A stretch of 64,000 bases of DNA from contig NZ_BLPF01000003.1 of assembly GCF_011764425.1 (NCBI RefSeq), positions 1,178,001-1,242,000 of the forward strand, read 5' to 3'. The position numbers and the translations under genes are program-made. The notes under the pieces were generated by a model. The model saw nothing but the letters and a program-made list of their open reading frames with translations. It was not told where the DNA came from and searched no databases. The DNA is from Phytohabitans houttuyneae (GTDB lineage: Bacteria > Actinomycetota > Actinomycetes > Mycobacteriales > Micromonosporaceae). Of the stretch, positions 7,749 to 26,851 are shown one piece after another; the stretch's first letter is position 1; every line of letters starts with the position of its first letter.

Positions 7749-8748
7749 TCGGATCCGCGGCCTTGACCGCCTCGGTGAGCTTGTCCAGCTCGGTGGCGAA
7801 GTCGCCGTACGTGTGCAGCCAGAACGCCGGCCACGCGACCACCGCGCCGGCCTTGGCGGCCTTGATCTTGAACCAGGTGGGCTGCTTCTTGCCCCACTCC
7901 GCGTTCGCCGTGGCGGTGAACGAGCGGCCGTCCCACAGGATCAGGTCGGGCTGGTACTTGTCGGCGTTCTCCCAGCTCAGGTTCTCCCAGTACGGGAAGC
8001 CGGGGTCGGGGCTGGCCGGGTTGATCACCTTCAGGCCCCAGCTCTGCAGGTCGAGCAGCTCCGGCGCGTACTCGGGGTTCGCCACGTACACCTTGTCGTC
8101 GGCCGGCGACATCGCCGCGACCGTGAGGTCCGCCTTGCCCGCCACGGCCTGCTTGAACGCGGCCACCGAGTCCTCGAACCGCTTCTTGTTGGCGGCGATC
8201 TCCGGACTGTCCACCTTGGCGCCCAGGCTGGCGGCGAGGTCCTCGTACCCGTCGGCGAGCGCGACGATCGACTTGCCCTGCGAGACACCGACGACGGGAG
8301 CGAGCTCGGCGAGCTTCTTGCTCTTCTCGTCGACGCCTTCCTCCATGCCGCTGTGCGCCTTCTCGGCCGGCCACCAGTCGCCGACGATCAGGTCCGGCCG
8401 CAGCGCCGCCGCCTTCTCCACATCGATCTTGCCCCACTCCTCACCGAGGATCTCGATGCCGGTGAGGTCGAGGTTCTTGAGGTTCGGGTCGGTCTTGACC
8501 GACTCGTCGGCGAAGATGCCGACCGGCTTGATGCCGAAGGACATCAGCGCCGCGGCCTCGCCGGCGTGCGCGATGATCCGCGTCGGGGTCTTGTCGGCCT
8601 TGACGACCTGGCCCGACCCGTCGGTGAACGACCAGGGACCGGCGGGGGCGGCGGCGGCCGAGTCGCCGCCACCGGAGGAGTCGTCGCCACAACCGGCCAG
8701 GACGGCGCTCAGCGCCGCCACGGCCACGACGGTACGCCATGCGCGCAT
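7735..8748 (-). CDS. iron-siderophore ABC transporter substrate-binding lipoprotein
   Basis: A 337-residue lipoprotein: the lipobox LAGC places the modified cysteine at residue 20, so the mature protein is anchored outside the membrane. The body is a class III periplasmic binding fold (TRIIAHAGEAAALMSFGIKPVGIF at the start, LRPDLIVGDWW in the first lobe, WPAFWLHTYGDFATELDKL at the end), typical of binding proteins for iron complexes. It is the first gene of the import operon and carries an iron box about 45 bases upstream of its start, so DmdR/IdeR repression under iron sufficiency is expected. Confidence 0.93.
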   Translation of the reverse strand: MRAWRTVVAVAALSAVLAGCGDDSSGGGDSAAAAPAGPWSFTDGSGQVVKADKTPTRIIAHAGEAAALMSFGIKPVGIFADESVKTDPNLKNLDLTGIEILGEEWGKIDVEKAAALRPDLIVGDWWPAEKAHSGMEEGVDEKSKKLAELAPVVGVSQGKSIVALADGYEDLAASLGAKVDSPEIAANKKRFEDSVAAFKQAVAGKADLTVAAMSPADDKVYVANPEYAPELLDLQSWGLKVINPASPDPGFPYWENLSWENADKYQPDLILWDGRSFTATANAEWGKKQPTWFKIKAAKAGAVVAWPAFWLHTYGDFATELDKLTEAVKAADPNVGA

Positions 8749-8792
8749 GGTGGAAGTTCCGTTCTCGTTGATGGGGGATCCGCGGTGCGGAG

Positions 8793-8811
8793 TTAGGTTA
8801 GGCTAACCAGC
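8793..8811 (-). promoter_or_regulatory. iron box of the siderophore uptake operon
   Basis: TTAGGTTAGGCTAACCAGC matches the DtxR/IdeR/DmdR iron-box consensus (TTAGGTTAGGCTAACCTAA) in all but the last three bases. It lies 45 bases upstream of the binding-protein start codon and should confer iron-dependent repression. Confidence 0.85.
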
Positions 8812-8895
8812 CTGCGGCGGTTCGTCTAGTCCGATGATCAGACTCACCGTCCCCTTGCGACGAGTCGCCGGCCGTGCGCGCTCGGCGATGGCGTG

Positions 8896-9717
8896 TCAGT
8901 CGATGCGGCCGATGGGCTCCCGCTTCTCGGCCTGGAACACGTCCTCGGTGCGGCCGCGCGCCCAGTAGCCGGAGATGGAGATGGCCGTGCGCGGGATCTC
9001 CCGGTCCCGCAGGACCTGGCGGACGGCCTTGACCGACTCGCGTTCACCGTGGACGAAGACCTGCACCGCGCCCGGGTCGGCCGGCCAGTCCGCGCCGTCG
9101 ACGGCGCGCGCCAGGAAGCCGGTGTCGCTCTCGTCGGTGTTGACCAGCCAGTTGAGCGTGACCCGCTCGGGGCACTTGATCGCGAGGATGTCGGACCGGT
9201 CGGCGACCTCGATGTGCGCGACACCGGCCGCGTCCTCGGGCAGCGCCTCCAGGGACGCGGCGATGGCCGGCAGGGCGGACAGGTCGCCGGCGAACACGTG
9301 CCACGCGGTGGCCGGGTCCGGCGCGTACCCACCACCGGGGCCGGCCGCCACGAGCCGGTCGCCGGGCGCGGCCTTCGCCGCCCACACCGCCGCCACGCCG
9401 GTGTCGCCGTGGGTGACGAAGTCGATGGCCAGCCGCCGCGCCGCCCGGTCCACCCACCGGACCGTGTACGTGCGCACGACCGGAAGCTGGTGCGGCGGCA
9501 GGGTGGCCCGCAGCGTGGCGAGGTCGTACGGCGGGGCGAGGCCGAGGTCCGGGTCGACGAAGACCAGCTTGACGTACGCGTCGGTGTGCCCGTTGTCGGC
9601 GAAGTCACCGAGCGAGTCGCCAGTGGCGACCACCCGCACCAGGTGCGGGGTCAGCCACTCGGTCGTCTCGACCGCGAGCACGTGCTGGGTCGGACCTTGC
9701 CGTCGCGGTGCGGTCAT
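8896..9717 (-). CDS. siderophore-interacting protein (ferric-siderophore reductase)
   Basis: A 273-residue flavoprotein of the SIP/ViuB family, which reduces ferric siderophores in the cytoplasm so that iron is released. The FAD-binding part contains VRTYTVRWVD (the RxYT/S flavin motif) and the glycine-rich GDRLVAAGPGGGYAP loop. The C-terminal part shows VFVHGERESVKAVRQVL and the family ending SGYWARGRTEDVFQAEK. GGAGGGG precedes the ATG. A perfect palindromic iron box lies 33 bases upstream. It is transcribed toward the uptake operon but has its own promoter, so both units belong to the same iron regulon. Confidence 0.95.
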   Translation of the reverse strand: MTAPRRQGPTQHVLAVETTEWLTPHLVRVVATGDSLGDFADNGHTDAYVKLVFVDPDLGLAPPYDLATLRATLPPHQLPVVRTYTVRWVDRAARRLAIDFVTHGDTGVAAVWAAKAAPGDRLVAAGPGGGYAPDPATAWHVFAGDLSALPAIAASLEALPEDAAGVAHIEVADRSDILAIKCPERVTLNWLVNTDESDTGFLARAVDGADWPADPGAVQVFVHGERESVKAVRQVLRDREIPRTAISISGYWARGRTEDVFQAEKREPIGRID

Positions 9718-15704: not shown

Positions 15705-16553
15705 ATGTCTGATGCGCAGAAGTCCGAGCCGGCACAGGAGCCGCCGGGCACCCTCGCGGCCATGCATCTCAAGCCCGACCACGGCGAACGGTCCTACCGC
15801 GGCTCCGGCCGCCTCGAAGGCAAGCGGACCGTGATCACCGGTGGCGACAGCGGCATCGGACGCGCGGTCGCGATCGCGTTCGCCCGGGAGGGCGCGGACG
15901 TGCTGATCTCGTACCTGGACGAGCACGGCGACGCGAAGGACACCGCCGCGCTGGTCGAGGAGGCCGGCCGCCGGGCGGTGCTCGTCGCCGGCGACCTCGC
16001 CGACCGGGAGCACTGCCAGACCGTGATCGACCGGGCGGTCGGCGAGCTGGGCGGGATCGACGTGCTGGTCAACAACGCCGCGTTCCAGATGACCCACGAG
16101 ACGATCGAGGAGATCCCGGACGAGGAGTGGGTGCGCACCTTCGACATCAACATCACCGCGATGTTCCGGCTGGTCAAGGCCGCCCTGCCGCACATGGGCG
16201 CCGGAGGTTCGATCATCAACACCAGCTCGGTCAACTACGACATGCCCCGCCCGACGCTGCTGCCGTACGCGACGACCAAGGGCGCCATCGCCAACTTCAC
16301 GGCCGGCCTCGCGCAGATGCTCGGCGAACGCCAGATCCGCGTCAACGCCGTCGCCCCCGGCCCCATCTGGACCCCGCTCATCCCGTCCACGATGCCGCCG
16401 GACCACGTCGCCACGTTCGGCGAGAACACGCCGCTCGGCCGTGCCGGCCAGCCCAAGGAGGTGGCGCCCGCGTACGTGCTGCTCGCCTCCGACGAGGCCG
16501 CATACATCTCCGGTGCCGTCGTACCCGTCACCGGCGGCAAACCCATCCTCTGA
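15705..16553 (+). CDS. short-chain dehydrogenase (general stress protein 39 type)
   Basis: A 282-residue NAD(P)-dependent oxidoreductase. The cofactor motif is TVITGGDSGIGRAVAIAFAREG, NNAAF follows, and the catalytic set is Ser in INTSSVNYD with YATTKGA (Tyr and Lys). The N-terminal extension (LAAMHLKPDHGERSYRGSGRLEGK) and C-terminal ISGAVVPVTGGKP identify the subgroup related to Bacillus stress proteins such as YdaD/YhdF. The ATG at 15705 has AAAAGGA just upstream. It opens a forward run with the DUF7218 protein and a partner-switching pair, which supports a general-stress role. The natural substrate is unknown. Confidence 0.92.
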   Translation: MSDAQKSEPAQEPPGTLAAMHLKPDHGERSYRGSGRLEGKRTVITGGDSGIGRAVAIAFAREGADVLISYLDEHGDAKDTAALVEEAGRRAVLVAGDLADREHCQTVIDRAVGELGGIDVLVNNAAFQMTHETIEEIPDEEWVRTFDINITAMFRLVKAALPHMGAGGSIINTSSVNYDMPRPTLLPYATTKGAIANFTAGLAQMLGERQIRVNAVAPGPIWTPLIPSTMPPDHVATFGENTPLGRAGQPKEVAPAYVLLASDEAAYISGAVVPVTGGKPIL

Positions 16554-16597
16554 CCCACCGGCCGCACCCTCGCGGCCCCGACGCGCGGAGGCCCGCC

Positions 16598-16918
16598 ATG
16601 CCCGCAGGTTCAAGCCCGAAACGAGAACGGCAGTACGAGCACATCAAGGACAGCGCCAAGAAGCGCGGCGCGTCGACCAAGCGGGCCACGGAGATCGCCG
16701 CCCGCACCGTCAACAAGGAACGCGCCCGCGCCGGCGAGTCCCGCACCGCGAGCCGCACGTCCACACAGGACATATCGTCCAGCCGCCGCGGCGGCCAGCG
16801 CTCGCACTCCGGCGCGCAGGGGCGCACGAAGGAGCAGCTGTACAACGAGGCGAAGAAGCGCGGCATCCAGGGCCGATCCCGGATGACCAAGGCACAGCTC
16901 CAGCGCGCGCTGAGCTGA
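16598..16918 (+). CDS. DUF7218-type basic protein, often named plasmid stabilisation protein
   Basis: A 106-residue, highly basic, hydrophilic protein (SSPKRERQYEHIKDSAKKRG, then ATEIAARTVNKERARAGES). The C-terminus (TKEQLYNEAKKRGIQGRSRM...LQRAL) resembles a SAP/Rho-N helix-extension-helix, a DNA- or RNA-binding motif. Homologues are widespread in actinobacteria and annotated as plasmid stabilisation or DUF7218; no toxin-antitoxin function is shown here. GGAGG at 16587-16591 marks the start. It lies between a stress dehydrogenase and anti-sigma genes. Confidence 0.85.
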   Translation: MPAGSSPKRERQYEHIKDSAKKRGASTKRATEIAARTVNKERARAGESRTASRTSTQDISSSRRGGQRSHSGAQGRTKEQLYNEAKKRGIQGRSRMTKAQLQRALS

Positions 16919-17001
16919 GCGTGGCCCGCGCCGTGCCACCCGGACCCGGCACGGGTACCGTGACAGATCAGTTCGGGTGGCAACGAAAGGAACAATCGGC
17001 G

Positions 17002-17400
17002 GTGACCAGGGTCCAGATGTCGCTGCGCCTGCCCCGCGACGTTCACGGCCTGGCACTGGTGCGGGCCGTCGCCGACCGGTTCCTCACGGCCTGCGGCGCC
17101 TCCGGCGACTGCCGCCAGGACCTGATCGCCGGCCTCGTCGAGGCATGCGGCAACGCGATCCGCCACGCTCTCAAGGTGGACGAGTACACGGTCATGCTCA
17201 CCGTGGACGGCGAGTCGTGCGTGGTCGAGGTCAGCGACGAAGGCCTGGGCTTCGCGATGCACGGCCCGCCCGGCGCGCCGCCGCCGACCGCGGTCTCCGG
17301 CCGCGGCCTGTACATGATCGACCAGCTCGCCGACTGGCTCCAGGTGGACAGCCAGCCCGGCCGAGGCACCACTGTCCGGTTCGCGAAGTCGCTGGCTTGA
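17002..17400 (+). CDS. RsbW-like anti-sigma factor / serine kinase
   Basis: A 132-residue single-domain GHKL ATPase of the HATPase_c_2 type. The N box is LIAGLVEACGNAIRHAL, followed by VVEVSDEGLGF (G1) and SGRGLYMIDQLADW (G2). Such proteins bind an alternative sigma factor and phosphorylate a STAS antagonist. The GTG at 17002 has AAAGGA 11 bases upstream; an ATG at 17017 is possible. Its stop codon overlaps the start of the SpoIIE phosphatase gene, so the two antagonistic activities are co-translated. No sigma factor or STAS gene lies immediately beside it. Confidence 0.88.
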   Translation: MTRVQMSLRLPRDVHGLALVRAVADRFLTACGASGDCRQDLIAGLVEACGNAIRHALKVDEYTVMLTVDGESCVVEVSDEGLGFAMHGPPGAPPPTAVSGRGLYMIDQLADWLQVDSQPGRGTTVRFAKSLA

Positions 17401-18683
17401 TGGCCGCCTTCCCGGTTCCGCCACCGGCCCGGTCCGGTGCCGCCGAGCCCGCTGCTGGCACTACGCTGTGGGCCGTGATCGAGGGCCACGACAGCGACGA
17501 ACGGCTGCGCCGCATGGAGGCGCTCACCGACACGTCCCTGTCCCAGCTCGACCCGGACGACATGCTCGACGAGCTCCTCGACCGGACCCGCCGCGTGCTG
17601 GGCATGGACACGGCGGCGGTGCTGCTCGTCGACGTACACGCCCGGCAGCTCGTCGCGACCGCCGCCCGCGGCCTCGAGGAGGAGGTGCGGCAGGGCTTCC
17701 GCCTCTCGGTCGGCCGGGGGTTCGCCGGCCGCGTCGCCGCCGAGAAGCGGCCGGTCGCGCTGAACGACGTCAAGCCCGGCGACGTGGCCAACCCGCTGCT
17801 GCTGAGGGCGGGCATCCGGTCGCTGCTGGGCGTGCCGATGTTCGGCGCCGGCGAGGTCATCGGCGTCCTGCACGTCGGCTGCCGCAGCCCGCGCACCTTC
17901 ACCGCCGACGACATCCGCCTGCTGCAGGTGGCCGCCGACCGCGCCGGCGTCGCCGCGCAGGCCCGCGCCACCACCATCGACCGGACCGCGGCGCTCGCCC
18001 TGCAACGCAGCCTGCTGCCCAGCCAACCCCCCGACCCGCCGGGCGTCGACATCGCCGCCCGCTACGTGCCCGGTCACGACGCCGGCGTCGGCGGCGACTG
18101 GTACGACGTCTTCTCCCTGCCCGCCGGCGGCCTCGGCATCGTGGTCGGCGACGTCTCCGGACACGGCCTCGCCGCCGCCGTGGTGATGGGCCGCCTGCGC
18201 AGCGCACTGCGCGCGTACACGCTGGTCACCGACAACCCGGCGCAGGCGCTGAGCATGCTGGACCGCAAGGTGCACCACTTCGAGGCGGGCAGCCTCGCGA
18301 CGGTCCTGTACGCCACGATCAGCCCCGACCGCACCACGATGCAGATCTCCCTGGCCGGCCACCTGCGCCCGATGCTCGCGCTCCCGGGCCAGGACGCGGT
18401 CATCCCCGACATCCCGGTGGACCCGCCCCTCGGCCTGGCCGGCCACCACCCGGCACGCCGGCACACCGAGATCGCCTTCCCGCCCGGCGCGGTCCTGGTC
18501 TGCTACACCGACGGCCTCGTCGAACGCCGCCACGAGATCATCGACACTGGCATCGAACGCCTCCGCAAGGCCATCATCGCCGCCCCCGCCGAGCAGGTCT
18601 GCGCGACGGCGATGTCCGCACTGGCCGAGGAACGCCCGGCCGACGACATCGCGATGCTCGCGATCCGCAACACCGCGGGCTGA
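17400..18683 (+). CDS. GAF domain PP2C-type serine phosphatase (SpoIIE/RsbU family)
   Basis: A 427-residue phosphatase. A GAF sensory domain covers about 45-190 (LDELLDRTRRVLGMDTAAVLLVD, LGVPMFGAGEVIGVLHVG). The SpoIIE catalytic domain covers about 215-427 with metal-binding aspartates in GVGGDWYDV (D233), GIVVGDVSGHG (D251) and PADDIAML. It should dephosphorylate a STAS anti-sigma antagonist and so counteract the RsbW-like kinase encoded just upstream. The ATG shares its A with the TGA of that gene (17398-17402), a tight coupling. A later GTG (17476) is an alternative start. The GAF ligand is unknown. Confidence 0.93.
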   Translation: MAAFPVPPPARSGAAEPAAGTTLWAVIEGHDSDERLRRMEALTDTSLSQLDPDDMLDELLDRTRRVLGMDTAAVLLVDVHARQLVATAARGLEEEVRQGFRLSVGRGFAGRVAAEKRPVALNDVKPGDVANPLLLRAGIRSLLGVPMFGAGEVIGVLHVGCRSPRTFTADDIRLLQVAADRAGVAAQARATTIDRTAALALQRSLLPSQPPDPPGVDIAARYVPGHDAGVGGDWYDVFSLPAGGLGIVVGDVSGHGLAAAVVMGRLRSALRAYTLVTDNPAQALSMLDRKVHHFEAGSLATVLYATISPDRTTMQISLAGHLRPMLALPGQDAVIPDIPVDPPLGLAGHHPARRHTEIAFPPGAVLVCYTDGLVERRHEIIDTGIERLRKAIIAAPAEQVCATAMSALAEERPADDIAMLAIRNTAG

Positions 18684-22027: not shown

Positions 22028-22450
22028 CTACCGGCCGGGCTGCTGCCGTCCGCCGCTGGTCACCGGGGGCGGCGGCGCGGTGGGCGGCGGGTCGGACCAT
22101 CTGTCCACCATGTACAGCACGAGCGCGGCCACCAGCAGCCCGGGCAGCACCAGCGCGGTGACCGCGGCGTGTGAGGGCGGGTCGATCAGCGGGGCGTAGT
22201 GCAGGGCGAGCAGCAGCAGGGTCGGCGCGAGGCCGATCGACCACGCCGCCACGTAGAGGCCGATCCGGTCGGGGCCGGCGCCCAGCCCGACCAGCCGGCG
22301 GACCAGGACGAGCAGGAACAGCAGCCCGAGCGACACCGCGACGGCGGTGTGCGGCGTGGTGAGCAGCAGCGCGAAGAACGGGCCGTAGAGCAGCAGGACG
22401 CAGATCGCGACGGACAGGCGGGCGCCGTCGAGCTCCTCAGCGCGGGTCAT
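22028..22450 (-). CDS. small integral membrane protein
   Basis: About 140 residues with four hydrophobic helices (SVAICVLLLYGPFFALLL; VAVSLGLLFLLVLV; IGLYVAAWSIGLAPTLLLLAL; TALVLPGLLVAALVLYMV) and a Pro-rich cytoplasmic tail. No family was recognised. It overlaps the STAS gene by 14 bases and is the last gene of the operon that starts with the giant hybrid kinase, so it may take part in or report on that signalling pathway. A start five codons upstream (22465) is possible. Confidence 0.75.
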   Translation of the reverse strand: MTRAEELDGARLSVAICVLLLYGPFFALLLTTPHTAVAVSLGLLFLLVLVRRLVGLGAGPDRIGLYVAAWSIGLAPTLLLLALHYAPLIDPPSHAAVTALVLPGLLVAALVLYMVDRWSDPPPTAPPPPVTSGGRQQPGR

Positions 22451-22745
22451 CGCCGGTACCCGCATTGTGGACCGTGGCGAGCTCGGCGAGGCCGGAGATG
22501 GTCAGCACCGGGCCGAGGCGGGGGTTGGCGACGAGCGTGAGGCCGTCGGCGTGGGCGAAGAGGACGGCCAGGCCGGCGCTGTCGAGGTACTCCACGGCGG
22601 ACATGTCGACCACGACCGGCGCGGGCGCGCGGTCCAGGGCGTCGGCGAGCGCGCCGGCGTTGCTCATGTCGATCTCGCCGGTGACGGTCAGGACGGTGGC
22701 GCCGTCCGCGTCCCGGCTGGGAGTGATGGCAAGCGGTGCGCTCAT
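22437..22745 (-). CDS. STAS-domain anti-sigma factor antagonist (SpoIIAA/RsbV type)
   Basis: A 102-residue STAS protein. The core reads VLTVTGEIDMSNAGALADALDR, then VVVDMSAVEYLDSAGLAVLFAHA; Ser56 in LDSAG is the residue phosphorylated in this family. When unphosphorylated such proteins bind RsbW-type kinases and free the sigma factor. Its ATG overlaps the stop of the giant hybrid kinase gene (ATGA, 22742-22745). That gene encodes both a PP2C phosphatase and an RsbW-like domain, so this STAS protein is very probably the substrate of both. Confidence 0.93.
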   Translation of the reverse strand: MSAPLAITPSRDADGATVLTVTGEIDMSNAGALADALDRAPAPVVVDMSAVEYLDSAGLAVLFAHADGLTLVANPRLGPVLTISGLAELATVHNAGTGDDPR

Positions 22746-25700
22746 CCTGCGATCCTCACTTCCATGTCGACGGTGGTGCCGCCCGGGCTGGCGTCGATGG
22801 CTACCCGGTCCATCATCGCGCGCATCAGCTTCAGGCCCCGCCCGCGGTAGGCGTCCGGCTCGGGTGCCGGTGTCTTCCACTCGCCGCTGTCGGCGACGGC
22901 CAGGTGCAGGCGCCGCGCGTACGCCTCCGCCCGCACCCGGATCGGACCGCCGGGCGCGTGGCGGTGGCCGTGCTCGATCGCGTTGGCGCACGCCTCGCCC
23001 GCGGCGACGAGCACGTTCTGCGCGGTGAGCGCGGAGACGTCGCACTGCTCCAGCCACTGCCGCAGCACCCCGCGCACCGGCGCGAGCTGGCCCGGCTCGG
23101 CGGAGAAGGTCAGGTCGACCGGGCCCGGGCGGCGGTAGAGCAGGACGGCGACGTCGTCGTCGTACCCGTCGCCGGTGACCAGCCGCGACATGATGCCCGT
23201 GGCCAGCTCCGCCAGGCCGCCGTCCGCGCCGTCCCGGACCGCGCTGGCGGCCAGGTGGATGCCGTCGGTGAGCGGCCGGCGGCGCCGCTCGATGAGGCCG
23301 TCGGTGTAGAGCAGCATGGTGGCGCGGGCCGGTACGGCGTGCTCGGCCTGGCCGCGGGCCCGGCCCGGCCGCACCGCGAGGGGCAGCGAACGGCCGCCGT
23401 CCAGCAGCAGCGGGCTGCCGTCGGCGAGGGCGAGGATGCCCGGCGGATGCCCGGCGCTGGCGTAGGTCAGGTGCCCGGTCGCCGGGTCGAGGACACCGCA
23501 GAAGACGGTGGTGCAGGCGGCGCCCGGCACCCCGGCGGCGAAATGGTCCATCGTCATCAGCGTGCGGGCCGGGCTGTGGTCCTGCAGCAGCAGCGCGCGG
23601 CAGGCGCTGCGCAGCTGGCCCATCACGGCCGCGGCCGCGAGCCCGCGGCCGACGCAGTCGCCGACGACGATGCCGATGCGGCCGTCGGTCAGCGGGATGA
23701 TGTCGTACCAGTCGCCGCCCACCTCCAGCGGGCGGGCGGCCGGCTCGTACCGGACGGCGAAACCGGGCGGCAGCGTGGACGGCCCGAGGATCGAGCGCTG
23801 CAACGCGATCGCGGTCTCCCGCTGCTGGTCGATCTGCTGAGCGCGGGCCAGCCCCTGTGCCAGGTGCCCGGCCAGCAGCGACAGCAGCAGCAGGTCGTCG
23901 CCGCTGAACGGGCGCGACGGGCCGAGGTCCAGGCGGAGTACCAGGGTCCCGTCCGGGTGTTCCAGCGCGATGCCGGCGGCGTCCCCGTCGAGCGTCGCCG
24001 CGGTCAGCGTCGGGCCGTCGCGCAGCGCGACCAGCGCCGCCCGGTCGGCCTCGGCGAGGTCGCCCCACTCGGCCGCCCGCCCGGCGACGGCGGTCAGCGC
24101 CGGCACCGAGCCGGCGCGGAAGACCACCGCCGACACGCCCGCGGCGGACCACAGCTCCCGCAGCTCCTCCAGCGCGCCGGACAGCGCCTCGTCGAGCGTC
24201 GCGGCGCCGGACAGCCGCACGCTGAGCGCGGCCAGGGCCGACTCCCGCTGGATCGCGTAGTGGTCGGCGGTGACGTCGCGGAACGTGCCGACCACGACGC
24301 CCTGGCGGGTGTCCGGGTCGCGGACCCGGTTGAACGTGGCGCTCACCCAGAGCCGGTGCCCGTCGCGGTGGGTGACCGGCACGGTGCCGCTGCCCTCGGC
24401 CTCCGCGAGCATCGTCGCGAAAGCCCGCTCGACCCGCCGGCGGGCCTCCGGGTCGGCGGCGGCGTCCGGCCACCACGGGTGGACCGGCTCGTACGGCAGG
24501 TCCTCCGGGCCGTACCCGAGGATCTCGGTGAACGCCGCGTTGATCTCGACCACCGCGCCCCGCTCGTCGCAGACGAAGAACGCCTCCTGCATCGAGTCGA
24601 CAAGCGCGGTCCGCCAGCGGGCGTGGTGGTTGCGCAGCCGGGCCAGCTGCACGTTCGCCCGCACCCGGGCCAGCAGCTCGGCGGCCGCGAACGGCTTGAC
24701 CAGGTAGTCGTCGGCGCCGGCCTGCAGGCCCTCGATGGACGCCTCCTGCCCGGCCCGCGCGGACAGCAGCAGCACCGGGACGGCGGCGGTGCGGTGGTCG
24801 GCACGCAGCGCGCCCACCAGCGACAGCCCGTCGCGGTTGGGCATCATCACGTCGCTGACCAGCAGGTCGGGTGCGGACGCGCGGACCGCCTCCAGCGCCT
24901 GCTGCCCGTCGGCCACCGCCACGACCTGGTAGCCGGCGGTGGTCAGCAGGCGGGTCAGGTACTCCCGCATGTCCGCGTTGTCGTCGGCCACGACGAGCGT
25001 GCCCTCGCCCGCCCGGGTGACCACCTCGGACCCGGGTCCGCCGTCCTCGCCGTCGGGCAGCCAGCGCAGCGCCTCCTGCACGTACGGGTCGGCGGTGGCG
25101 GAGACAGCGGTAGTCCCCGCGGCGGCGGCGACCGACTCCTCCGGCAGGTGGGCGTGGCCGTACGGCAGGCGGATGGAGAACCGGGTGCCCCGCCCCTCGA
25201 CGCTGTCCGCGGTGATCGTGCCGCCGTGCAGGGTCACCAGCTCCTGCACCAGCGCCAGGCCGATGCCGCTGCCCTCGTTGGAGCGGGAGCGGGCGTTTTC
25301 CACGCGGTGGAACCGCTCGAACAGCCGCGGCAGCTGGTCGGCGGCCACGCCGGTGCCGGTGTCGGCGACGGTCACCACCGCCTCCCGGTCGCCGGCCCGC
25401 ACGCTCACGCCGATGGTGCCTTCGAAGGTGAACTTGAGCGCGTTGCTGAGCAGGTTGAGGACGACCTTCTCCCACATGGCGAGGTCGAGGTACACCGGGC
25501 GGTCCAGCGGCGGGCAGTCGACGGCGAGGACCAGCCCGGCCCGCTCGACCGCGGAGCGGAACACGCTGGCCAGCTCGGCGGTGACGGCCGCGAGGTCGAC
25601 CGGCTCGAACCGGGCCTGCATGCGGCCGGCCTCGATGCGGGAGAAGTCGAGCAGCGTGTTGACGAGCTTGCCCAGCCGCAGCCCGCTGCGGTGGATCACC

Positions 25701-26851
25701 TCCAGCTCGTCGCGCACACCCTGGTCTGCGCCGGCCAGCCGGCCGCGCAGCTCCTCCACCGGCCCCATGATCAATGTCAGCGGGGTGCGGAACTCGTGGC
25801 TGATGTTGGAGAAGAACGCGGTCTTCGCGCGGTCGAGCTCGGCCAGCTCCTCGGCCCGCCGCTGCTGCGCCTGGTAGCTGCGGGCGCTGGAGATCTCGGC
25901 CGCCAGGTGACCGGCGACCAGCTCGATGAAGGCGCGGTAGCCGTCGTCCAGCGGCCGGTACCGGTTGAGCGCCGTGACCAGGAACCCGTTGGGGCCGCCG
26001 CCCTGCTGCGCCAGCGGCACGACGAGGGCCCGCTCCGGCGGGCCGGGCAGGTCGCCGGCCGGCAGCCCGGTGAACGGCGGCCGGTCGAGCTCGACGAGCA
26101 CCGTCTCGCCCTTGGCCAGCGCGGCGCTCGGCCAGACCTCGGCCGCGCTGTCGAGCGGCAGGGTCGCCGGGGCGGCCGGGTGCCCGGCCGGTATGCCGGT
26201 CGTGGCCGCCAGCCGGGCCACGCCGTCCTGGTACAGGTAGGTCAGCGTGAAGGGCAGGTCGCGGCGGTTGCGGCCGAGCTGGTGGCTGGCGCTTTCGAGG
26301 AGCTCCCGCTCGGTGCGCACCGCGCTGGGGTCCGAGCCCAGGTCGCGCAGCGTCGCCAGGCGGCGCTCGCCGATGACCCGCTTGGTGTCCTCGCTGACCA
26401 CGCAGAGCATGCCGACCGGCACGCCGCCGTCGTCGCGCAGCGGGCTGTACGAGAACGTGTGGTAGGTCTCCTCCGGGTAGCCGGACCGCTCCAGGAACAG
26501 CAGCAGCGCCTCGTCCCAGGTCGCCTGCCCGGCGGACAGGACGGTGTCGATCCGCGGGCCGATGTCGGGCCAGATCTCCGCCCACACCTCACGCGCCGGC
26601 CGGCCCAGCGCCCACGGGTACTTGCGGGCGAGGGTGTCGCGCCGGTAGGCGGCGTTGCAGAAGAACGTCAGCTCCGGGCCCCACGCCATCCACATCGAAA
26701 ACCGCGACGAGAGCAGGATGCTGACCGCCGTGCGCAGGCTCTGCGGCCAGCTCTCGGGTGGCCCCAGCGGCGTCGCCGCCCAGTCGACCGCCGCGAGGTC
26801 CCGCCCGACCTCCGGGTCGGCGCTGAACACGCCGAGGCCAGCCACCGGCAT
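22742..26851 (-). CDS. giant hybrid: PAS-GAF-histidine kinase-receiver-PAS-GAF-PP2C-RsbW
   Basis: This 1369-residue cytoplasmic protein joins two signalling systems. Residues about 30-170 form a PAS-like sensor and 185-325 a GAF-like domain. The histidine kinase follows (H352 in SNISHEFRTP; N box at N470 in LLSNALKF; G boxes to about 560), then a receiver domain (about 617-735; phosphoacceptor D667 in VSDVMMP, K719). A second PAS (about 745-865) and GAF (about 875-1005) lead to a SpoIIE/PP2C phosphatase (about 1030-1238; D1047, D1065, DDD at 1231-1233) and an RsbW-type kinase (about 1240-1366; N1290 in EACANAIEHG). The start at 26851 (MPVAGLGVF) is chosen by similarity of the following PAS; the frame is open to 27007. 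STAS and membrane-protein genes are coupled downstream. No transmembrane helix is seen. Confidence 0.93.
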   Translation of the reverse strand: MPVAGLGVFSADPEVGRDLAAVDWAATPLGPPESWPQSLRTAVSILLSSRFSMWMAWGPELTFFCNAAYRRDTLARKYPWALGRPAREVWAEIWPDIGPRIDTVLSAGQATWDEALLLFLERSGYPEETYHTFSYSPLRDDGGVPVGMLCVVSEDTKRVIGERRLATLRDLGSDPSAVRTERELLESASHQLGRNRRDLPFTLTYLYQDGVARLAATTGIPAGHPAAPATLPLDSAAEVWPSAALAKGETVLVELDRPPFTGLPAGDLPGPPERALVVPLAQQGGGPNGFLVTALNRYRPLDDGYRAFIELVAGHLAAEISSARSYQAQQRRAEELAELDRAKTAFFSNISHEFRTPLTLIMGPVEELRGRLAGADQGVRDELEVIHRSGLRLGKLVNTLLDFSRIEAGRMQARFEPVDLAAVTAELASVFRSAVERAGLVLAVDCPPLDRPVYLDLAMWEKVVLNLLSNALKFTFEGTIGVSVRAGDREAVVTVADTGTGVAADQLPRLFERFHRVENARSRSNEGSGIGLALVQELVTLHGGTITADSVEGRGTRFSIRLPYGHAHLPEESVAAAAGTTAVSATADPYVQEALRWLPDGEDGGPGSEVVTRAGEGTLVVADDNADMREYLTRLLTTAGYQVVAVADGQQALEAVRASAPDLLVSDVMMPNRDGLSLVGALRADHRTAAVPVLLLSARAGQEASIEGLQAGADDYLVKPFAAAELLARVRANVQLARLRNHHARWRTALVDSMQEAFFVCDERGAVVEINAAFTEILGYGPEDLPYEPVHPWWPDAAADPEARRRVERAFATMLAEAEGSGTVPVTHRDGHRLWVSATFNRVRDPDTRQGVVVGTFRDVTADHYAIQRESALAALSVRLSGAATLDEALSGALEELRELWSAAGVSAVVFRAGSVPALTAVAGRAAEWGDLAEADRAALVALRDGPTLTAATLDGDAAGIALEHPDGTLVLRLDLGPSRPFSGDDLLLLSLLAGHLAQGLARAQQIDQQRETAIALQRSILGPSTLPPGFAVRYEPAARPLEVGGDWYDIIPLTDGRIGIVVGDCVGRGLAAAAVMGQLRSACRALLLQDHSPARTLMTMDHFAAGVPGAACTTVFCGVLDPATGHLTYASAGHPPGILALADGSPLLLDGGRSLPLAVRPGRARGQAEHAVPARATMLLYTDGLIERRRRPLTDGIHLAASAVRDGADGGLAELATGIMSRLVTGDGYDDDVAVLLYRRPGPVDLTFSAEPGQLAPVRGVLRQWLEQCDVSALTAQNVLVAAGEACANAIEHGHRHAPGGPIRVRAEAYARRLHLAVADSGEWKTPAPEPDAYRGRGLKLMRAMMDRVAIDASPGGTTVDMEVRIAG

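Follow-up and report, generated by a model that had tools for sequence, protein, structure and literature searches.

A conserved actinobacterial two-gene module joins a hybrid histidine kinase to a PP2C phosphatase, an RsbW-type kinase and a coupled STAS gene

We analysed a stretch of 64,000 nucleotides from Phytohabitans houttuyneae (contig NZ_BLPF01000003.1, positions 1,178,001 to 1,242,000; the whole stretch is called the window here), in which two overlapping genes lie on the minus strand. The larger, P0001, encodes a hybrid histidine kinase, a receiver, a PP2C phosphatase and an RsbW-type kinase in one chain of 1369 residues. The smaller, P0002, encodes a STAS antagonist, and its start codon sits on the stop codon of P0001 in an ATGA overlap. 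The features of the pair, in window coordinates, are as follows.

22742-26851 (-), open frame of P0001, 1369 aa
26378-26743 (-), N-terminal PAS, residues ~37-158 (AlphaFold2 model; profile match to the PAS structures of Rv1364c; PAS_4 in relatives)
25898-26314 (-), GAF (GAF_2), residues 180-318 (PF13185, E 2.4e-9; matched in 24/24 aligned members)
25625-25828 (-), HisKA with H352, residues 342-409 (PF00512; H352 in 110/110 rows)
25160-25471 (-), HATPase_c of the histidine kinase with N470, residues 461-564 (PF02518; N470 in 110/110 rows)
24659-24994 (-), receiver (Response_reg) with D667 and K719, residues 620-731 (PF00072; both residues in 110/110 rows)
24266-24601 (-), second PAS (PAS_4), residues 751-862 (PF08448; PAS_4 in 21/24 members)
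23789-24196 (-), GAF-like stretch, residues ~886-1021, with a long helix (984-1021) at its end leading into the phosphatase (structure model only)
23129-23686 (-), PP2C/SpoIIE phosphatase, residues 1056-1241, metal-site motifs from G1045 (PF07228)
22763-23107 (-), RsbW-type kinase (HATPase_c_2), residues 1249-1363 (PF13581; 3ke6 match)
22437-22745 (-), STAS antagonist gene P0002, 102 aa, with Ser56 (Pfam STAS_2 and STAS, above cut-off)

The seven Pfam domains assigned to P0001 in this list all score above their curated cut-offs. The N-terminal PAS falls below, with 20.4 bits for PAS_4 against a cut-off of 23.1, but several lines of evidence identify it. PAS_4 matches at E <= 0.01 were found in 23 of 24 aligned members (the window plus 23 loci at less than 72% identity, drawn from 109, with class-B rows, described below, and locus L028 included), and an AlphaFold2 model of residues 1-345 that covers the domain has a mean predicted local distance difference test score of 89.6. 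A profile of the domain matched three solved sequences at E <= 0.001, all of them the PAS domain of Rv1364c. In a fold search of the N-terminal part, phytochrome PAS-GAF modules came out on top with low template modelling (TM) scores, and the Rv1364c PAS ranked 21st (TM 0.75 by target). We conclude that the N-terminal PAS is real, though weak by sequence. The stretch at residues ~886-1021 fared differently. Its order of helices and strands is GAF-like in the structure model, but none of the 24 members gave a Pfam GAF match there at E <= 0.01, and a profile comparison of the first and second GAF (loci L028-L033 dropped) reached 40% probability over 37 columns and was not accepted. Its assignment as a GAF domain, suggested by the model, is unproven. 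The domain chain proposed in the first-pass annotation of this DNA thus stands in all its parts, the N-terminal PAS included, except for this second GAF, which lacks Pfam support. The highest 19-residue mean hydropathy of P0001 is 1.66, with no obvious membrane helix, and the protein is probably cytosolic. Among NCBIfam models, the 25 families listed of 161 were other histidine kinases and regulators, all under their own cut-offs, and P0002 scores below the cut-off of TIGR00377.

The catalytic residues are conserved throughout the family. In an alignment of 110 rows (the window plus L005-L113; L001-L004, from the window's own genome, were left out of residue counts), H352, N470, D667, K719 and the PP2C residues D1047, D1065, D1184, D1232 and D1233 are invariant. 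The RsbW residues E1286, N1290 and D1321 are present in 109 of the 110, the exception being L028, where this part is out of frame. Among the 80 best-scoring loci introduced below (L034-L113), H352, D667, E1286, N1290 and D1321 are kept in every one. The residues are named by the motifs usual for these families. Loss of the RsbW or PP2C residues, which had been named as grounds for giving up the initial proposal, was looked for in these alignments and did not occur; H352, D667 and Ser56 lie where they had been placed, and the ATGA-overlapping STAS gene with Ser56 does follow P0001 directly. A relative in the window's own genus (L114) is without the second PAS, with 84% and 80% identity on either side of the gap, and retains the kinase, receiver, outputs and STAS.

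Relatives of P0001 are numerous. A scan of genome contigs found at least 590 stretches that encode some relative, partial ones included, and each of the best 80 spans the protein from residue 14 or earlier to residue 1347 or later. Their hosts include Streptomyces, Actinomadura, Microbispora, Planobispora, Saccharothrix, Actinokineospora, Micromonospora, Actinoplanes, Mycolicibacterium and others. These 80 loci are the best-scoring rows and hence a biased sample, in which S. longwoodensis appears twice and some flanks are shorter than 4 kb; ratios are nevertheless given on them, as the 29 same-family loci (L005-L033) may repeat their species. In an even sample of the same family, 34 of 121 genomes match at E <= 1e-200 (own genome and class-B relatives included), and in a sample of the phylum 8 of 296 do (own genome included), 7 of them over the full length. 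One of five other listed genomes of the genus carries a relative, so the distribution within the genus is patchy. Full copies with a STAS gene also occur on a conjugative plasmid of Rhodococcus ruber and on a plasmid of Streptomyces fungicidicus, and four annotated plasmid records that we viewed name the protein only as 'SpoIIE family protein phosphatase'. On the R. ruber R1 plasmid (L140, typed conjugative), the complete module with its STAS gene has an ANTAR protein, a small heat-shock protein and an alkane monooxygenase as neighbours. In the plasmid search the N-terminal half alone was matched in many proteobacteria and some Deinococcus and cyanobacteria, among them Azospirillum, Rhizobium and Leptolyngbya, at ~48-52% identity with that half alone compared.

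At the C-terminal end, residues 1029-1367 match the RsbU-RsbW part of Rv1364c (3ke6) at E 9.7e-41 by sequence and E 2e-74 by profile, and take Foldseek ranks 1 and 2. Judged from these sequence matches, P0001 appears to combine a hybrid kinase of wide distribution with an output pair resembling that of Rv1364c. With at least 80 full-length relatives in actinobacteria, the earlier view that the full set of domains is unusual is not supported. We conclude that the module is a real, conserved, common and portable actinobacterial regulator, not a rare one.

The STAS gene belongs to this module. The question of how often it follows the big gene has a clear answer: start and stop codons of the two overlap in 78 of the 80 loci (37 TGATG, 34 ATGA, 7 GTGA). 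In Catellatospora bangladeshensis (L062) the STAS gene lies ~1.4 kb away, past apparently inserted DNA (~8090-9460); the extra DNA of L008 has the same open reading frames (ORFs), and the two loci may come from one species. STAS is adjacent in 21 of the 29 same-family loci, the others being class B, cut off, displaced or broken. In a tree, the 79 STAS partners of these loci group together as a single clade (support 0.86), to which none of 55 other STAS proteins encoded nearby belongs. Ser56 is present in 102 of 102 aligned STAS rows and the preceding Asp in 101 (P0002 plus 101 of 109 loci; left out were L008, L026, L029-L033 and L102, with no STAS located nearby, and L001). The resulting DSxG is the context of the phosphorylatable Ser in STAS antagonists. 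A STAS domain fused in the same chain was not flagged in the scanned loci; in the window the STAS is encoded by a gene of its own that overlaps that of P0001. The big gene is almost always accompanied by the STAS gene.

A second STAS gene stands in the flanks of 47 of the 80 loci, divergent within 1.2 kb in 29, only farther upstream in 15 and in tandem in 8 (the classes overlap), and in 15 loci it lies beside a divergent PP2C gene. The largest clustered neighbour family is a divergent GAF-PP2C gene that occurs at some of the loci. P0002 is the sole STAS match in the window. Of the 17 loci among the 80 that come from Micromonospora, Actinoplanes, Paractinoplanes and Catellatospora, 16 have no second STAS (exception L109); the same-family loci L006 and L011 have one.

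Some relatives differ at the C-terminal kinase. We call the form seen in P0001, with its coupled STAS, class A. In class B (L115-L124 from the same family and L144 from a more distant one), the same kinase and receiver half and the PP2C domain are followed by another class of HATPase_c_2, with a SELxxNAVLHG-like motif and, in five aligned rows (L029-L033), a G1 box of D-x-A instead of D-x-G. No same-strand STAS gene was found in the 2.0-3.3 kb read downstream of any of these 11 class-B genes (L029-L033 and L132 repeat some of them in shorter form and were not counted again); L144 has a STAS upstream on the opposite strand. The class of kinase therefore goes with the presence of an own STAS gene, a link that, as far as sequences can speak to it, suits a substrate relation between the two. 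We tentatively propose, as plausible rather than probable, that the C-terminal kinase is exchangeable, class A working with a coupled STAS and class B acting on a STAS encoded elsewhere, and that in both, in actinobacteria that lack HPt, the receiver drives the in-chain PP2C and RsbW-type domains with no onward relay.

The host genome bears on how the receiver might act. No HPt domain (PF01627) matched at E <= 0.001 in this genome, which is 95.4% complete; the control search matched in 8 of 14 genomes. An effect within the chain is the simplest reading because the usual exit from a receiver is missing from the genome. The term phosphorelay, applied to this protein at first, is in its strict sense not borne out, and what remains is a His-to-Asp step. 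Six SigB/F/G genes score above the family cut-off in the genome, and a SigB/F/G factor is, on sequence evidence, the likely target. Matches to a SigB/F/G-type sigma factor and to STAS share one open frame at two places in the genome (G000:C3:830630-831640 and G000:C1:3180974-3181990), which recalls SsdA, a sigma protein described in Actinoplanes missouriensis.

From the domains, residues, gene overlap, missing HPt match and six sigma genes described above, we infer the phosphotransfer steps, the substrate relation and the sigma target of a scheme that we consider probable: a conserved two-gene partner-switching module in which phosphorylation of the receiver shifts the balance of PP2C and RsbW activities on the STAS protein and thereby acts on a SigB/F/G-type anti-sigma factor. 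The PAS and GAF domains would set autokinase activity, and phosphate would pass from H352 to D667 within one chain or a dimer. The state of the receiver would then act in the chain on PP2C, probably through the helical linkers of the REC-PAS-GAF-like-long helix segment. The fused RsbW-type kinase would phosphorylate Ser56 of the coupled STAS and PP2C would remove the phosphate; unphosphorylated STAS would bind an RsbW-type anti-sigma factor, either the fused domain itself or a free one in the genome, and so free a SigB/F/G sigma factor. With the parts and their catalytic residues intact and the STAS gene a near-constant partner, it is natural to read the two enzymes as controlling Ser56 in opposite directions. 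The long helix that enters PP2C in the model is as in the linker mechanism of RsbU-type phosphatases, whose sensor domains are proposed to act via helical linkers and dimers (PMC12143880). Phosphorylation of RsfR lowers its PP2C phosphatase activity (PMC10950880), whereas HsbR is described as a kinase when unphosphorylated and a phosphatase when phosphorylated (PMC6482189). Because these two differ, the sign of the effect of phospho-D667 on PP2C cannot be predicted.

Each link of this scheme has a precedent. Rv1364c of M. tuberculosis (PAS-PP2C-RsbW-STAS) is the closest solved relative at both ends, in the PAS and in the PP2C-RsbW pair, and reportedly both adds phosphate to its own STAS domain and removes it (PMC9138534). 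Its STAS is part of the same polypeptide, and its description includes neither a histidine kinase nor a receiver, whereas P0001 has a separate coupled STAS and a PAS-GAF-histidine kinase-receiver part in front; overall superposition of the two-domain fold match is also poor (TM 0.55 by target, root-mean-square deviation ~11.5 Å). HsbR of P. aeruginosa and CrsR of S. oneidensis likewise each combine a receiver, a PP2C domain and an RsbW-type kinase, and have STAS partners in HsbA and CrsA. Separate hybrid kinases signal to HsbR via HptB, but P0001 has a histidine kinase built in, and no HPt was matched in its genome; with HisKA and HATPase_c of its own, P0001 is not a stand-alone response regulator. 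In SypE/SypA of Vibrio fischeri a serine kinase, receiver and phosphatase in one protein similarly act on a STAS protein; the order there is kinase-REC-PP2C and the domains described include no histidine kinase, whereas P0001 has one. RsfSR of M. smegmatis and RsbKY of B. cereus also lead from a histidine kinase to a receiver-PP2C protein that controls the antagonist, but there kinase and receiver-phosphatase are two proteins and RsbW is separate. The logic of the switch is therefore less new than first thought, as a chain uniting receiver, PP2C and RsbW-type kinase, with a STAS partner, was already known from SypE, HsbR and CrsR. What P0001 adds is the histidine kinase in the chain together with a coupled, separate STAS. 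Among the matches listed in the open-licence PubMed Central literature, we found no study of this fusion.

Streptomyces coelicolor offers further comparisons. OsaC (SCO5747), compared by description only, is a stress-response phosphatase with GAF and PAS domains whose kinase domain is N-terminal and binds SigB, whereas the RsbW-type kinase of P0001 is C-terminal; sources differ on OsaC, one review calling it a hybrid with histidine kinase and receiver. SCO7327, named OsaD (PMC9739823), is a hybrid kinase without a membrane helix and with an unclear output, in an organism described as having three hybrid kinases with unclear signalling and no known HPt proteins (both PMC9739842, section 4.2). 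SCO7325 is an RsbV that acts on SigB (PMC8346170). From their numbering alone, SCO7327 and SCO7325 may form a locus like those above with STAS genes in tandem.

Several observations weigh against the proposed scheme. No sigma gene lies in the window, and full-length SigB/F/G matches are absent from 76 of the 80 flank sets (two have weak partial matches). The four loci that do have them exceed a rough expectation of 0.4-0.6 (P ~0.0006-0.004, Poisson) and speak for the scheme, but in a test that was set up after the hits had been seen and with rough densities, such as nine per 8.7 Mb; two of the four are from Paractinoplanes and two from Streptomyces. A SigB-type promoter motif stands upstream of the big gene in 4 of 81 stretches (the window and the 80 loci), compared with 2.5% of shuffles and 0.9% of random windows, and the window's own gene is not among the four. 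The partnership with STAS is also not universal: Actinokineospora diospyrosa (L102) keeps the whole protein with no STAS in ~4 kb, the plasmid copy L142 has no STAS downstream, and at L125, the second copy within a genome, the kinase motif takes a third form and the STAS is convergent. Shared descent could also explain the association of kinase class with STAS. Cross-talk is possible because the genome holds many candidate partners: at least 36 STAS_2 matches (34 above cut-off) among the 150 candidates scored out of 344, and 39 HATPase_c_2 matches above cut-off, some of which are probably histidine kinases. For Rv1364c itself, PMC9138534 cites a paper whose title includes 'Loss of kinase activity'. 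Apart from these points, on a Mycobacterium gordonae plasmid (p1, L143) a SigB/SigF/SigG gene lies ~1.25 kb upstream, and the RsbW-like stretch is read in a different frame from the annotated gene's end.

The same gene pair can be read in other ways. The fused RsbW domain could itself be the anti-sigma factor, as in CrsR, holding a sigma factor until unphosphorylated STAS displaces it. Its RsbW-like fold, which also matched SpoIIAB-sigmaF and RsbV-RsbW structures, agrees with this, as do the binding of RpoS by the same kind of domain in CrsR (PMC6482189) and of SigB by the OsaC kinase domain (PMC10117811), and in the Paractinoplanes loci L081 and L109 a SigB/F/G gene lies ~0.1 kb from the big gene. 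The lack of a sigma gene in the window and in most flank sets speaks against it, and we consider it rather unlikely that this is how the module works. Alternatively, the STAS partner might act on a target that is not a sigma factor, like SypA, which affects biofilms by an unknown post-transcriptional route (PMC12826045); that no sigma gene adjoins this operon agrees with such a role. Yet the actinobacterial relatives Rv1364c, RsfB and RsbV act on SigF or SigB, and there is the weak proximity signal among the relatives, so we give a non-sigma target little credence.

The remaining alternatives concern the receiver. It might mainly brake its own histidine kinase, as proposed for RsbK, leaving the second PAS and the GAF-like stretch to set PP2C and RsbW and the two halves only loosely linked. 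Deletion of the receiver in B. cereus RsbK makes sigmaB constitutive (PMC4574943), and the N-terminal half has matches of its own in bacteria such as Azospirillum, Rhizobium and Leptolyngbya, as judged from the matched part. Against such loose linkage, H352, D667 and the RsbW residues hold together in all 80 fusions, and L114 has dispensed with the second PAS and kept kinase, receiver, outputs and STAS; a brake of this kind seems unlikely to us. The initial proposal saw a one-protein bistable switch, in which phospho-D667 selects either PP2C or RsbW and a loop holds two stable states. Opposing enzymes in one chain beside a substrate-like coupled gene, and the phosphorylation-dependent kinase and phosphatase states described for HsbR, are compatible with it. 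The sequence has no sign of positive feedback or cooperativity, however, the SigB-type promoter signal upstream is not clear, and phosphorylation may, as in RsfR, do no more than lower PP2C activity. We regard bistability as very improbable and retain the shift in PP2C/RsbW balance as the preferred reading.

Beyond the STAS gene and overlapping its end, 22028-22465 (-) encodes a 145-aa hydrophobic protein. The four-helix membrane protein described there at first is thus right in its ~four hydrophobic stretches, but its membership in the module is not upheld: it has no Pfam match, and a phmmer search (E <= 10) of the ORFs of L001-L132 and L140-L143 gave no match outside L001, the locus of the window itself. 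We rejected it as a module part, as it has no relative in the other loci searched. Repeats near the operon were uninformative, and neither sigma70-like promoters nor terminators were found there. Three further SigB/F-type promoter patterns occurred in 0, 15 (16% of shuffles, 8% of random windows) and 2 (0.4% and 0%) of the 81 upstream stretches, and a SigB/F-type promoter upstream of the big gene was set aside as not clearly enriched over the four patterns. About 4 kb past the 3' end of the operon, another RsbW-type kinase ORF (16441-17400, +) and a GAF-PP2C ORF (16977-18683, +) lie together; they overlap as listed, and their true starts may differ.

If the module works as argued, a hybrid kinase would have its output in the same chain, and this small system could be used to study how a serine kinase and a phosphatase are balanced by a histidine kinase. 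The module is a good object for direct biochemistry. Should the proposal of exchangeable C-terminal kinases prove true, orphan hybrid kinases such as SCO7327 would be explained by an in-chain output, and class A would be a self-contained switch that leads from two-component input directly to serine phosphorylation of an antagonist.

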